Shown here: positions 19,172 through 30,406 of the stretch, piece by piece | Numbering within the stretch: position 1 is the first letter of the stretch | Layout of the letters: each line of letters starts with the position of its first letter | Origin: Oscillospiraceae bacterium | GTDB lineage: Bacteria > Bacillota > Clostridia > Oscillospirales > Oscillospiraceae | Reading direction: 5' to 3' | DNA length: 64,000 bases | Assembly (NCBI GenBank): GCA_017434755.1 | Contig: JAFRER010000018.1 | Location: 1-64,000 of the forward strand | Translations under genes and position numbers: made by a program | Notes under the pieces: model-generated | The model's input: only the letters and a program-made list of their open reading frames with translations | Databases searched by the model: none | Told to the model about the DNA's origin: nothing

Positions 19172-20842
19172 TTGACAAACTATATAGATGCGAATGCATT
19201 CAAGAATATGATCCTGTGCGCCAACGCCGCGCTTCAAAGCAACATCCAGGCCATCAACGAACTCAATGTTTTCCCCGTGCCTGACGGCGACACCGGCACG
19301 AACATGGGTCTTACCCTGTCTAACGCCGTGACGGAGCTGAACAAAAAGGAGTTTTCCTCTCTTGACGATGCGGCTGACTGTGTCGCTTCCGCACTTCTGC
19401 GCGGAGCGCGCGGGAATTCGGGCGTCATCCTTTCGCTGCTTTTCAGGGGCATTTCCAGACGGCTGAAGGGTATGGATTCCGCGGGTCCCGTTGAGTTTTC
19501 CGGGGCAATGTGCGACGGCGTCGACGCGGCGTATAAAGCCGTGATGAAACCTGCGGAAGGCACTATCCTTACCGTTTCGCGCCTTGCTTCCGCTGCGGCG
19601 AAAAAGGCCGCGGAGTTCGGCGCGGATGTGGACGGCATGCTGGAATGTGCGGTAGTGGCCGCAGAGGAAGCGCTGGAAGACACCGTAAACCAGAACCCTG
19701 TTCTGAAAAAGGCCGGCGTCATCGATGCCGGCGGAAAAGGCTACTGTGTTATCCTGACGGCGATGCTGCAGGCTTTCCGCGGTGAGTTCGTTATGTCTGA
19801 CGATCCATCGGCTCAATTTGCCGGATCTGCAAACGTTTTCAGCGGCCTCAATCCCGAAGACATTACTTTCGCTTTCGACACCGTTTTCATCGTAAACAAA
19901 AAGGCTGAAACGTCCATTGCCCCGTTTCGCGCTTATCTCGATTCCATCGGTGACAGCATCGTGATCAACGAGGATGATGAGATCTTCAAAGTTCATGTTC
20001 ATACGGACATTCCCGGTGAAGTACTTACCGAAGCGCAGAAATACGGAACGCTTGAGCTTGCCAAGATCGAAAACATGGTCACGCAGGCTGAGCAGCAGGC
20101 GGCAGGAAAAAAGGCGCAGAGCACAGATGATCTGGATGCTGTTGAAAAAGAACTGGAGCAGAGTTCCGAGCCTGCCGAACCGGAAAAGGAATTCGGAGTG
20201 GTATCGGTATGCGCAGGCGACGGGATGGCGGATGTGTTCCGGCAGCTCGGATGTGACAGTATCGTGACGGGCGGTCAGACAATGAACCCCTCCACAGAGG
20301 ATATACTTCACGCAATTAACTGCACCAACGCTTCCACGGTGTTCGTTCTCCCCAACAACAAGAATATCATAATGGCTGCGGAGCAGTGCATTCCTCTGAG
20401 CAGGAAGAAAGTAGTAGTCATTCCCTCCAAGACCGTTCCGCAGGGAGTCACCGCCATGCTGAACTTTATGCCGGAGGGTGCGGCCGATGAGATCACTGCC
20501 GCCATGACCGACAGTCTCTCCTCCGTCCATACCGCGATGGTGACATATGCGGCAAGGGATTCTGAGTTCGACGGCCACTCCATCCATGCCGGCGAATACC
20601 TCGCTCTTCTCGACGGTGCTCTTGTGGGAAGCTTCACCAGCATTTCCACCTTATTCAAGGAACTCAGCTGGGCAATCGACGAACTGAACCCCGAATTCAT
20701 AACCATGTATTACGGGGCGGATGTGGACGAGGAAGACGCTTCCGCCGTTTCCGACACCTTCAAAGGCAACTTCCCGGATGCGGAGATAACCGTTATCAAC
20801 GGAGGCCAGCCTGTTTACTTCTATATGATCAGCATCGAATAA
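19172..20842 (+). CDS. fakA: Fatty acid kinase subunit FakA (DhaL domain plus DegV-like domain, YloV)
   Basis: A 556-residue kinase subunit. The N-terminal DhaL-type ATP-binding domain (about 1-200) has VPDGDTGTNMGLT at 36-48, holding the Asp residues that bind Mg-ATP, and LRGARGNSGVILS near 85. A linker rich in Glu follows near 320, and the C-terminal half is DegV/FakB-like. FakA phosphorylates a fatty acid presented by a FakB protein for membrane lipid synthesis; no fakB is in this window. The start is TTG at 19172 with GGAGGT nine bases upstream; the family N-terminus matches. A terminator follows at 20856. Confidence 0.93.
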   Translation: MTNYIDANAFKNMILCANAALQSNIQAINELNVFPVPDGDTGTNMGLTLSNAVTELNKKEFSSLDDAADCVASALLRGARGNSGVILSLLFRGISRRLKGMDSAGPVEFSGAMCDGVDAAYKAVMKPAEGTILTVSRLASAAAKKAAEFGADVDGMLECAVVAAEEALEDTVNQNPVLKKAGVIDAGGKGYCVILTAMLQAFRGEFVMSDDPSAQFAGSANVFSGLNPEDITFAFDTVFIVNKKAETSIAPFRAYLDSIGDSIVINEDDEIFKVHVHTDIPGEVLTEAQKYGTLELAKIENMVTQAEQQAAGKKAQSTDDLDAVEKELEQSSEPAEPEKEFGVVSVCAGDGMADVFRQLGCDSIVTGGQTMNPSTEDILHAINCTNASTVFVLPNNKNIIMAAEQCIPLSRKKVVVIPSKTVPQGVTAMLNFMPEGAADEITAAMTDSLSSVHTAMVTYAARDSEFDGHSIHAGEYLALLDGALVGSFTSISTLFKELSWAIDELNPEFITMYYGADVDEEDASAVSDTFKGNFPDAEITVINGGQPVYFYMISIE

Positions 20843-20855
20843 GTATAGAGAAAGC

Positions 20856-20888
20856 AAAAGAGCCGCTGCAATAGCAGCGGCTCTTTTT
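20856..20888. terminator. Bidirectional terminator between fakA and the his-operon end
   Basis: A perfect 14-bp stem (20856-20869 with 20874-20887) has a 4-base loop and a flanking T-run on the right and A-run on the left. The right arm reaches the stop of the convergent nuclease gene, so it ends both transcripts. Confidence 0.9.
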
Positions 20889-22057
20889 CATATCCGGGAC
20901 ATCGTTTTTCGAAACACGCCGGATGCTATATCTCTGCTGTCGATCACGCCGATCCGCAGTTCAGCTGCCCTGCGTTTCGCCATATTCGAGCAGGCGCCGG
21001 TAGTGATCAGATAGGCCTTCGCCATTTCTCCGCCGAATCGGTCCCGGAGAATGCTCAGTTCGTTTATGGCCTCCGTCTTCACATCGCAGGTCTTGCAGCT
21101 GATAAACACCGGCATTACTCCCTTGGTCGCGACAACGTCTATCTCATTTGATACGCCGGCCCTTCCGGATTCTCCCTCCCAGTCCACCACCGCGCTTGTG
21201 ATGACATCGTCAAAAGATCCGGATTCGACACACACCTTATACGCATACAGTTCCAGCACACTTCCGACATCTCTCATCCACGCCCGTATCTGCAGGTCGG
21301 AAAACCGGAATTCCACGCTCTTTTCCGCTTCAATGCAAAGATCGGAGATGAATCCGATCTCCTCATACTCCCGGAGGATCTTTTCCGGAGCAGGGAGTTT
21401 TCCTCCCCGCTCTCCTTTCTGGAAATAATCTCCGTGCACATGAAGGGGGATCTCAGCTTCCGGCTTCGTTCCGGACAGCTGCTGGATAAACTCCACCGCG
21501 CGGACCCAGTCCCGTTTGTTGTTGATATACAGCTCATAGAAAGGCTCGATACGATCCATATATCCCGAAAGGATGGAGTTGTCTACCCGGCCGGTATGCA
21601 GGGCTCCTCCCGCCATAAGGATGATGTCCTCCACTTTGTAGCTTATCGGACATTCCAGATCGGATGCGAAAGCGGCATTGCTGATGCTGAAAAAGCGGTT
21701 TTTCCTGCGGCTGTATGTAAAAACGGGTATGTCCGGTCTGTCTGCGCTGAGGCGTCCTGCAGCAAAAAGCGCGTCGTCCGTCCCTCCGGTGATATCGATC
21801 GCACAGTCCGGAAAACTGTCGGTTATACTGCGCAGGACCGTGAGTATCTCACCGGCGTTAAACAGTCTCGTCCGCCGGAAGATGATCTCCGTATCGATCC
21901 CGCGATGAGCCAGATATCTATTTATCTTTCTCTTATGCTCCTTATTGTCAGGGATCTCTTCGGGATAGACGAACACGGTCCTGACCGGTCTGAACATCTC
22001 CGTTGCCAGAACATTTTCCAGCGGCCTGTTATCATAAAGTTCTATCAGTGTCTCCAT
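20888..22057 (-). CDS. CARF-DUF1887 (Card1/Can2-like) nuclease-family protein
   Basis: A 389-residue protein with a Rossmann-like N-terminal domain bearing ITGGT at 89-93, the motif of CARF domains that bind cyclic oligoadenylate, and a C-terminal DUF1887 PD-(D/E)xK-type domain. Catalytic-core candidates are Glu-269 in VLELY, Asp-307 in NEIDVV, and Lys-322 in ISCK. The position two before the Lys is Ser-320, where Card1 is remembered to have Glu; activity is therefore not assured. Card1 and Can2 are type III CRISPR effectors that cut nucleic acid when activated. Here there is no CRISPR array, cas10 or other cas gene. AGGAGG sits six bases before the ATG, and the gene begins 50 bases after hisJ with no terminator between, so it is probably co-transcribed with the his operon. 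Confidence 0.82.
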   Translation of the reverse strand: METLIELYDNRPLENVLATEMFRPVRTVFVYPEEIPDNKEHKRKINRYLAHRGIDTEIIFRRTRLFNAGEILTVLRSITDSFPDCAIDITGGTDDALFAAGRLSADRPDIPVFTYSRRKNRFFSISNAAFASDLECPISYKVEDIILMAGGALHTGRVDNSILSGYMDRIEPFYELYINNKRDWVRAVEFIQQLSGTKPEAEIPLHVHGDYFQKGERGGKLPAPEKILREYEEIGFISDLCIEAEKSVEFRFSDLQIRAWMRDVGSVLELYAYKVCVESGSFDDVITSAVVDWEGESGRAGVSNEIDVVATKGVMPVFISCKTCDVKTEAINELSILRDRFGGEMAKAYLITTGACSNMAKRRAAELRIGVIDSRDIASGVFRKTMSRI

Positions 22058-22107
22058 GCGGAACCTCCTATGGGCAGCTGCCGCCCGTATGCATACGATG
22101 CCCGCTC

Positions 22108-22857
22108 TTACAGCAGGTTTTCGAATCTGTCGAATCCGAACGCGATGGTATCGGCGCTGTGACTGTCGCTCGACAGGATGAATCTGCCGCCGCGCTGTCT
22201 GAGATAATCGATGATCCTGCCTTCCGGGTACGGAGAACAGCGCCAGCCCCTTGAAATAGCCCCGGTATTGATCTCAAAGGGCTTCCCGAACGGAAGCAGT
22301 CTGTCTGCCGCCCGCTGCCAGGCAGCGATATAGCCTGGATCGTCCGTGTCGATCTCCATTCCTTTTTCGGAAAACTTGGTAATGAGATCAAAATGACCGA
22401 TTATGTCGGCGCCGGTCTTCTCCGCAACATGCGATACGGCATCGTAATAGTCTTCCGCCAGGCAGCGGAAATCTCCACTGTAGTGATCGGCAAGCGCCTG
22501 TTTCAGCACCTCCGGCCTGTCATCGACCGCAAAATACGCTCCGTCCTTTTTCAGATAATGGACCGACCCGATCACATAATCGAAGTCCGACGCATCCTGT
22601 TCGGACCAATAATCCAGTTCGATGCCGCAGAGGATCTCGATCCTGCCGCGGTATTTTTCTTTCAGCCCCGTTATTTCGTCGATATACTTCCGGACACTGT
22701 CCCCTGTCATTCCTTCCCGCGGATTGAAGGGGACACTGCTGTGTTCGGAAAAGCCTATGCGCTCCATTCCCATCGAGAGAGCAGAAAGCACCATCTCTTC
22801 CGGCGTGTTCCGCCCGTCGCCGTATATTGTGTGCATATGCAGATCTGTACGGATCAT
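22108..22857 (-). CDS. hisJ: Histidinol-phosphatase, PHP family
   Basis: A 249-residue PHP-domain phosphatase that removes phosphate from L-histidinol phosphate. Metal-binding motifs are visible in order: DLHMHT at residues 5-10, FSEHS near 36, the GSVHY segment near 96, GHFDL near 150 and DSHS near 230. The length and motifs are those of the HisJ/HisK type used in Bacillota instead of the HAD-type HisB phosphatase. Its start overlaps the stop of hisIE by four bases (ATGA), indicating coupled translation. Its presence completes the pathway, as the hisB here encodes only the dehydratase. Confidence 0.93.
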
Positions 22858-23504
22858 CCGGTCATTTTCTCCTGTTTTACTTTATGATCAATCACATGTC
22901 TTGACGAAAGCTCGCGGATAACGTCTTCCGTGCTGATCCCGGCCTCGGTCATCAGTACGAGCACATGATACACGAGATCCGCGATCTCATAGACCGTCTC
23001 TTTTTTGTCCTCCGCCTTGGCGGCTATTATCACTTCCGTCGTCTCCTCGCCGACCTTTTTCAGTATCTTGTCAAGTCCCTTCTCGAAAAGATAGGAAGTA
23101 TAGGAGCCTTCCTTCGGTTCGCTCTTTCTCCCCTTTATCAGCTCCATGAGGCCGGATAATGTGAAATCGTTCTGCTCATCACTGTCCCACACCGGGTATT
23201 CAAAGCAGGACTGCGTACCAAGATGGCAGGCGGGGCCTTCCGGTTCCACGACGATCACGAGGGCGTCCCTGTCACAGTCAGCCGTGATCGAAACGATATG
23301 CTGGTAATTGCCGCTGGTCTCGCCCTTCAGCCAGAGTTCCCCCCTCGACCTGCTCCAGAAGCATGTGAGCTTTTTCTCTATGGATATTCGCAGGCTCTCC
23401 TCATTCATATACGCAAGCATAAGGACTCTTCTTGTTGCAGAATCCACCACTATCGCGGGGATGAGTCCTTTTTCATCAAATCTGAGTTCGGAAATATCTG
23501 TCAT
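22854..23504 (-). CDS. hisIE: Bifunctional phosphoribosyl-AMP cyclohydrolase / phosphoribosyl-ATP pyrophosphatase
   Basis: A 216-residue fusion carrying steps two and three of histidine synthesis. The HisI half (about 1-110) shows [28 protein letters not shown] and the metal ligands in TADCDRDAL and [10 protein letters not shown]. The HisE half (about 115-216) shows the all-alpha pattern with [22 protein letters not shown] and [13 protein letters not shown]. It follows hisF by nine bases and overlaps hisJ by four. The fusion is common in Bacillota. Confidence 0.96.
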
Positions 23505-29166: not shown

Positions 29167-30111
29167 TCAAAGCAGTTCGTCCGGCAGAGCGATCCTCTCC
29201 AGTTCGTCCAGATAGACGGCAAATCCGACGGCATTCGATCTCCTGCCCATCTTCTCCATGAGTCTGTCATACTGGCCGCCGGAGAGGACTCTGTCCGGTA
29301 TACCGTCGATGAACCCTCTGAAAACGATGCCGTTATAATAGCTCACGTCACCGATCAGCGAAAAATCTATCTCGGTTCTGGAGCGGACGCCGGGATCCTT
29401 CAGTCCGCAGATGATCATTTTCATTCTTTCCAGTCTGCTGCGAAGCTTGTCTCCAGCGCAGAGTTTTTCAAGCTCCGGCAGCACTTTGTCCGCTCTTCCG
29501 TAGACGGAAAGAAGTCTCTTCAGAGGCAGACTTCTTTCCTCAGGGATGTTTTCCTGTGCGCAGATCTCGGCTATCCCGTGCAGATTCCTCTCACCCGCAC
29601 ATTTAATTATCCTTCGTCTGACATCCTCGGAGTCTGTCATGTCATCCAGCAAAGCAAGCGGTATATCCATATCAGACAGCTCCAGAACATATGCGTTGCT
29701 GAGCATCCCGAGGCTCTCCGCGGCAAGTGAAATGACTTCGGCAAGGCATTCCGTATCTATCCTGCCTATGCATTCAAGCCCTGTCTGCATGATCTCTTTG
29801 AAAGACCCCGTTTTTTTAGACACACGGTAAACGCTCTCATCATAGCAGAGCTTCCTCAGACGGTCAGCCTCGTCTCTGCTGTTTCGGATTATCGAAAGAG
29901 TCACATCCGGCTTGAGTGCCATGAGCATGCCGTTCGTATCGGTAAAGGTTATGACATTGTCCGAAACAAGGAAGTCCTTGTTCCGGCTGTACAGGTCATA
30001 TTCCTCGAAACGGCTCATCGTGTACTTTTCGTATCCGCTGGCCATGTATAAGGCACGCAGGGCGAAGAGGATCCTCTCGGTGTTGCTCAGAACGGAAGCG
30101 TCAAACTTCAT
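29167..30111 (-). CDS. hisZ: ATP phosphoribosyltransferase regulatory subunit
   Basis: A 314-residue paralogue of the histidyl-tRNA synthetase catalytic core that partners with short HisG and gives it activity and histidine feedback. Motif-like segments include the class II region FEEYDLYSRN, TDTNGMLMALKPDVTLSIIR, a LECIGRIDTECLAEVISL stretch and the C-terminal SGGQYDRLMEKMG. It lacks an anticodon-binding domain, so it is not a synthetase. The ATG at 30111 follows AGGAG by a good distance and overlaps the yerC stop by eleven bases; a longer frame from 30132 is less likely. Confidence 0.93.
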   Translation of the reverse strand: MKFDASVLSNTERILFALRALYMASGYEKYTMSRFEEYDLYSRNKDFLVSDNVITFTDTNGMLMALKPDVTLSIIRNSRDEADRLRKLCYDESVYRVSKKTGSFKEIMQTGLECIGRIDTECLAEVISLAAESLGMLSNAYVLELSDMDIPLALLDDMTDSEDVRRRIIKCAGERNLHGIAEICAQENIPEERSLPLKRLLSVYGRADKVLPELEKLCAGDKLRSRLERMKMIICGLKDPGVRSRTEIDFSLIGDVSYYNGIVFRGFIDGIPDRVLSGGQYDRLMEKMGRRSNAVGFAVYLDELERIALPDELL

Positions 30112-30406
30112 CTTCCTTCTCCTGTTCCTCAAGTCTTGCTATCACCGTTTCATATCCGCCGTCACCGTAATTCAGGCATCTGCTTACCCGGCTGATGGTC
30201 GTGCTGCTTGTCCCGACCTGCCGGGAGATCTCCTGATAGCTTTTCCCGCTGTACAGAAGTCGTGCGGTTTCAAACCTTTGTGCCATATCCTGGATTTCCT
30301 TTATCGTGCAGAGATCTTCAAAAAAGGCTCTGCTCTCGTCCTCTGACTCAAGAAGCAGAACGCTGCGGAAAAGAGCATTTACCGCTTCCGAATAATAGTT
30401 TTGCAT
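30101..30406 (-). CDS. yerC: YerC/YecD family TrpR-like regulator
   Basis: A 101-residue protein of the TrpR-like YerC/YecD family. The helix-turn-helix lies at about residues 55-80, with SYQEISRQVGTSSTTISRVS and the family-typical CLNYGDGGY after it. It is the first gene of the his operon, has a good promoter of its own (30437-30465) and overlaps hisZ. Homologues have been proposed as histidine-gene repressors; from memory only, and here position is the main argument. AAGGAGAC precedes the ATG. Confidence 0.88.
   Translation of the reverse strand: MQNYYSEAVNALFRSVLLLESEDESRAFFEDLCTIKEIQDMAQRFETARLLYSGKSYQEISRQVGTSSTTISRVSRCLNYGDGGYETVIARLEEQEKEDEV

Follow-up and report, generated by a model that had tools for sequence, protein, structure and literature searches.

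A Card1/Can2-like nuclease gene without a CRISPR locus in an Oscillospiraceae genome belongs to a conserved and relocating orphan lineage

Nucleases of the Card1/Can2 type are usually taken as parts of CRISPR systems, and the window analysed here (the whole stretch of 64000 nucleotides at the start of contig JAFRER010000018.1 of an Oscillospiraceae bacterium) raises the question of what such a nuclease is for when its gene stands behind hisJ. The gene (20888..22057, reverse strand) is an ORF of 389 codons with an ATG start and an AGGAGG closely 5′ of it. Its product scored 31.3 bits with the Pfam model Card1_endonuc (PF09002, DUF1887), which passes the gathering score of 26.4 bits, and matched the PADLOC profile CARF4--CARF_PDDEXK (PDLC01895; no description in the library) over its full length at 2e-43; no NCBIfam family was found for it. 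From fold and conservation, the CARF domain spans approximately residues 1–140 (21638..22057, reverse strand), with TLIELYD..P.EN at β-1, GGTD after strand 4 and TYSR after strand 5. The PD-(D/E)xK nuclease domain, delimited by profile and conservation, spans approximately residues 265–389 (20891..21265, reverse strand) and holds E269, N304-E305-x-D307 and S320-C321-K322. Both the ITGGT motif and the serine residue of ISCKT are present. An AlphaFold2 model computed from an 80-row alignment (pLDDT 91.6, pTM 0.87) found its best PDB fold match in VC1899 (1xmx; E 1.5e-22, TM 0.77, 16% identity), followed by the Dysgonamonadaceae Can2, the Sulfobacillus Can2 with cA4, Cdn1 and Card1, with EndoMS among the weak matches (5gke, E 1.9e-3). 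By sequence, the nearest solved chains were Can2, VC1899 and the Dysgonamonadaceae protein. The gene call and the Can2/Card1 layout of an N-terminal CARF and a C-terminal PD-(D/E)xK domain, as claimed in the original prediction, were thus confirmed by the ORF, the profiles and the comparison of the predicted structure with the PDB.

The upstream neighbour (22108..22857, reverse strand) is an ORF that we take, from its context, to be hisJ, encoding histidinol-phosphatase. Between its end at 22108 and the nuclease gene lies a gap of 50 bases (22058..22107, reverse strand), which contains the AGGAGG and gave neither a terminator-like nor a sigma-70-like match; no sigma-70-like site was found in 20700–22900 as a whole. 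The longest terminator-like match in that region was a 14-pair hairpin with a T-rich tail directly 3′ of the nuclease stop codon (20856..20887, reverse strand). Both the short gap with its own AGGAGG and no terminator, and the terminator behind the nuclease gene, therefore stand as predicted. Being near-symmetric, the hairpin might also act as terminator for the DAK-type gene that converges on it (19172–20842, forward strand). Elsewhere in the window, a small reading frame at 30101–30406, which is presumably TrpR-like, overlaps the beginning of the his cluster.

The prediction had also stated that the window carries no CRISPR locus, and within the coverage of the profile searches the same holds for the complete set of draft contigs (2335076 bases in 27 contigs, 97.89% complete). 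Neither the window nor the remaining 26984 bases of its contig showed regularly spaced repeats when scanned by a repeat-spacing script, which did detect arrays in loci L138 and L047; loci L133, L134 and L135 gave none. There was no match in the genome to the models of the Cas10 palm (PF22335), Cas1, RAMP (PF03787) or SMODS (PF18144), each of which matched in control genomes, nor to A3, a profile of III-D-like Cas10 relatives; a further Cas10 query, PF20824, matched nowhere, controls included, and was set aside. The PF22335 and RAMP models both matched in the relatives G029, G172 and G282, which lie outside the clade carriers described below. The III-D-like modules of genomes G015 and G024 reached only 26–27 bits with PF22335 and were missed by PF03787, meaning that Cas10 modules of similar divergence may have gone undetected. 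The proposed genome check for cas10 and other cyclases thus came out negative for Cas10 and, on the cyclase side, for the SMODS model PF18144 alone, with CD-NTases beyond that model and the unassembled ~2% of the genome lying outside the coverage. Among 22 carriers the SMODS model, which bears on a role as CBASS effector, matched in one.

Next, we asked whether the orphan state is peculiar to this genome. No Cas10 match over the cut-off was found in 50 carrier genomes, which derive from 80 public loci and are in part the same genomes as those with G numbers here; most are MAGs, with completeness not given, so that single absences are weak. Two weak Cas10 matches in this set were GGDEF proteins. 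Two of the carriers are named strains, Merdimmobilis hominis Marseille-P2769T and Pseudoflavonifractor phocaeensis An858, both with the gene and without a Cas10 match. RAMP matches were absent from all 22 clade carriers and from the five next-nearest carriers. Within the genus, the gene was present in 16 of the 36 other genomes, many of these being incomplete. Cas1 matched in 5 of 41 genomes and in none of the 17 same-genus carriers. One genome of the genus (G029:C19:23357–26947) has Cas10 and RAMP matches and no DUF1887 match. Orphan status is therefore usual among carriers and no accident of the window's own genome.

A survey of 394 genomes of the order yielded 44 with a match to the clade profile at any depth, six of which, the own genome included, exceeded 560 bits and so reached clade level. 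Cas10 was over the cut-off in 27 genomes, and both Cas10 and DUF1887 occurred in three (G172, G282 and G245); matches near the cut-off were counted without inspection, that of G245 being 27.7 bits in a 293-aa frame. Cas10 was thus found in 3 of the 44 genomes with a DUF1887 match compared with 24 of the 350 without (odds ratio 0.99, p 1.0), and a stricter Cas10 threshold (<1e-20) gave 2/44 compared with 11/350 (p 0.65). These counts fit an independent occurrence of DUF1887 and Cas10 matches across the order, and we do not claim that the gene avoids Cas10. A second survey, of 393 genomes of the class, gave 45 matches, with the own genome alone at clade level; the clade is therefore narrow and patchy. 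Its labelled kin are Oscillospiraceae/Ruminococcaceae. Among the other DUF1887 matches, genome G051 holds two divergent copies (contigs C1 and C6; loci L037 and L038), and matches lie inside frames of 1420, 835 and 723 aa in G070:C12 (L150:6018–10277), G182:C9 and G816:C24 respectively, which are possible fusions.

Cas10-bearing relatives do exist. In genome G282, a DUF1887 gene (L138:6998–8227) is the last gene of a Cmr-type operon (L138:336–8227; G282:C9) that reads, by sequence and order, as a cas6-like gene, cmr1 to cmr6 and a cas10 with GGDD, with cas10 and cmr4 confirmed by PADLOC and a CRISPR-like array behind the operon at ~8600–9400 of L138. In the maximum-likelihood tree, the window protein falls into an 82-row clade (100/99) apart from this Cmr-linked row, the deeper order being unsure owing to long branches. 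A different, CRISPR-less, III-D-like Cas10 module was detected in 2 of 17 same-genus carriers (G015 and G024) and in none of 20 non-carriers. The two cassettes (L134:6753–10514, G015:C91; L133:2478–6996, G024:C100) encode a Cas10d-like protein with AGDD/GGDD, a Cas5_IIId-like protein of ~580 aa and a Csx19-like protein, and that of L133 additionally encodes a Csx20-like protein extended at its C terminus. The fetched stretches contained no array and neither genome had a Cas1 match; possibly the cassettes are to be grouped with the array-less HRAMP/ARAMP systems mentioned in the excerpted text of PMC12669027. As a candidate partner this module was rejected: it is present in only 2 of 60 genomes, both of which carry the orphan gene, and absent from the window's own genome.

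A functional link to histidine biosynthesis fared no better. The original prediction had asked whether the hisJ–nuclease adjacency is conserved in relatives, and hisJ stood directly upstream in only 2 of the 80 public loci (L053 and L054), a share that could be slightly higher, given that L055 is truncated within the gene and eight more loci have <700 bases upstream. A third locus, L086, has hisIE ~1 kb upstream of the gene with no hisJ match between them. Among 16 same-genus carriers, where the gene sits in differing genomic places, his genes lay beside it in G009 alone, five contigs (L003, L025, L026, L028 and L036) being too short to show both flanks; G026 has a hisJ-like match of 33% identity on the other side of the nuclease gene. 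Among the loci examined, the his link is thus confined to the window genome and its closest relatives, and as a general functional link to the operon it was rejected. Nor was any fixed partner gene seen in the 85 loci surveyed (80 public loci, the window and four order-level loci): the commonest real neighbour was a 4Fe-4S membrane protein in 11 loci, ABC transporter paralogues were scattered over 20, and the larger neighbour groups were reading frames overlapping the nuclease gene itself. A phage or plasmid origin was likewise rejected, as there were no matches in 50697 phage records, no confirmed viral contigs and a single distant plasmid record (24.8%).

While the gene relocates, its sequence is held. 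Comparison of the window with L053 gave dN 0.049 and dS 0.631 (ratio 0.078), and with L054 a ratio of 0.10 at a dS near saturation, showing that the gene is under purifying selection. In an alignment (A6) of 80 rows, consisting of the window and 79 public loci with the truncated L055 left out, 52 columns are invariant, and these include E269, N304-E305-x-D307 and S320-C321-K322. The core residues E305, D307 and K322 are thus kept in every row, and the glutamate of the ExK motif is serine in all 80. NExD and the same serine were found in all 24 further DUF1887 rows from the order, giving SCK in 104/104 rows (102 different, as two of the added rows duplicate A6 ones). The serine in place of glutamate had been put forward as a hint of lost activity, which these rows do not support. 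Because SCK occurs in all of them, including the one behind the Cmr operon with its array, the alignments indicate that the serine is characteristic of the lineage and consistent with a protein tied to CRISPR.

We then compared the ligand pocket with that of Can2, using the cA4 contacts listed in the excerpt of Zhu et al. (PMC7969007), according to which none of them is conserved in VC1899, an orphan not regulated by cA4. By HMMER alignment, which is gapless at the first loop, Can2 S19, D20, H21, T42, K99, Y118 and S121 correspond to D9, E10 (N10 in the window), R11, P32, D94, T114 and R117; a MAFFT alignment shifted the first loop by one residue, placing Can2 Asp20 at D9, and the HMMER version was preferred. 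Four contacts, Ser19, Thr42, Lys99 and Tyr118, are accordingly replaced by D9, P32, D94 and T114 in the window clade. The seven mapped positions had a mean entropy of 0.35 compared with 1.37 for the CARF domain, and only 0.16% of random position sets were as low. D9, E14, N15, D94, T114 and S116 are invariant in the clade, and R11 and R117 nearly so. These patterns suggest that the pocket is under selection and chemically unlike that of Can2. In the excerpted text of Makarova et al. 2014 (PMC4012209), every CARF family has members unlinked to CRISPR-Cas, and a missing basic residue after strand 4 is taken to mean that CARF families may bind distinct ligands. The invariant aspartate at the Can2 Lys99 position might be read in this way; however, the Cmr-linked relative of G282, which by its position is expected to be a cOA effector, has Asp there too, and its pocket otherwise contains Lys10 and Arg114. 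Asp94 alone does not therefore exclude cOA, and we dropped it as proof against such a ligand, with which the pocket may be compatible. The suggestion that such a protein answers another source of ligand, or that its domain was re-used, is consequently favoured by the conserved yet different pocket, which is an argument from alignment and no proof.

Our preferred reading, tentative and a little short of an even call, is that the protein, whose gene has come to stand alone in a clade of gut bacteria, may be an active nuclease with the Can2/Card1 fold, gated by a ligand from a non-Cas10 source. The protein would form a homodimer, and its CARF pocket would bind a small nucleotide-like signal made by a non-Cas10 enzyme, either of the host or triggered by phage. 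Ligand binding would open the PD-(D/E)xK cleft, which could then nick or cut nucleic acid, and cleavage might serve as a defence or dormancy response. That the protein acts as a CRISPR-independent standing alarm, a lone CARF nuclease sensing through its remodelled pocket the nucleotide-like product of a synthase that is neither Cas10 nor SMODS, is a possible form of this reading that we hold with more reserve. Against this reading count the modules of G015 and G024, which might make cOA, and the weak RNase activity, unregulated by cA4, of VC1899, the closest structure by fold. These two genomes, holding both the orphan gene and a III-D-like module, also lend weight to an effector acting in trans, answering cOA or SAM-AMP whose makers, type III systems or Cas10 relatives, are transient on other elements or in other strains; so do the shared SCK core and Asp of the Cmr-linked relative and the Cas10 matches in the genus (G029) and, with the near-cut-off ones uninspected, in the order. 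We nevertheless consider this unlikely given the odds ratio of 0.99 over 394 genomes, the 50 carriers without Cas10 and the branching of the window clade apart from the Cmr-linked row, the last being read with caution because of the long branches.

The absence of signs of a mobile origin, the conserved core and the weak EndoMS match would suit a housekeeping or repair nuclease similar to EndoMS/NucS, independent of a ligand and keeping the CARF domain as a dimerization scaffold. This is rather improbable, since the gene is patchy within its genus and conservation is higher at the pocket positions than in the remaining CARF domain. Decay after the loss of a type III locus, as proposed for VC1899, is the least credible explanation, and we regard it as very improbable: serine in the ExK motif and acidic residues in the pocket would suit it, and VC1899 is termed possibly degenerate in the excerpt of PMC7969007, but the low dN/dS with L053, the 52 invariant columns and the presence of SCK in the Cmr-linked relative all speak against decay.

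Returning to the preferred reading of a ligand-gated nuclease, orphan DUF1887 proteins are already known from VC1899; what is new is an orphan lineage that is conserved throughout its clade and relocates, evidence that the serine is not decay, and independence from Cas10. No earlier description of the clade was found in open-licence papers. Across an order, DUF1887 and Cas10 matches are independent of each other, and none of the tested carriers of one clade yielded a type III CRISPR system, while the pocket is conserved yet rebuilt. With two named carrier strains, the question of orphan CARF ligands becomes directly testable. If the alarm reading were true, CARF-based immunity or stress signalling would form an independent system beyond CRISPR.

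Compared with known systems, the window protein has the same CARF plus PD-(D/E)xK layout and fold as Can2 (7bdv and 8bao) and Card1 (6wxw and 6xl1), the cA4-activated ancillary nucleases of type III systems, and shares with Can2 the NExD motif and the lysine of xCK, both kept in 80/80 A6 rows. In contrast with Can2 and Card1, no type III system was found in its genome; Can2 has ECK where it has SCK, and none of the four cA4-site residues common to Can1 and Can2 is kept. The DUF1887 protein of G282 belongs to the same family and order and agrees with it in the SCK core and in Asp at position 94, but comes with a Cmr operon containing cas10 and an array, and has Lys10 and Arg114 where the clade has mostly Glu10, and Thr114 (80/80 rows). 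The DUF1887 protein VC1899 of Vibrio cholerae, the best fold match, is described in the excerpt of PMC7969007 as having weak RNase activity not regulated by cA4: like the window protein, it is an orphan without a tie to type III CRISPR, has Asp at the Can2 Ser19 position and a pocket unlike that of Can2. According to the same excerpt, Arg is retained in VC1899 where Can2 has Lys99, and the VC1899 sequence reads IECK; the window protein has Asp94 and ISCK, and in the window protein the orphan state extends over a conserved clade.
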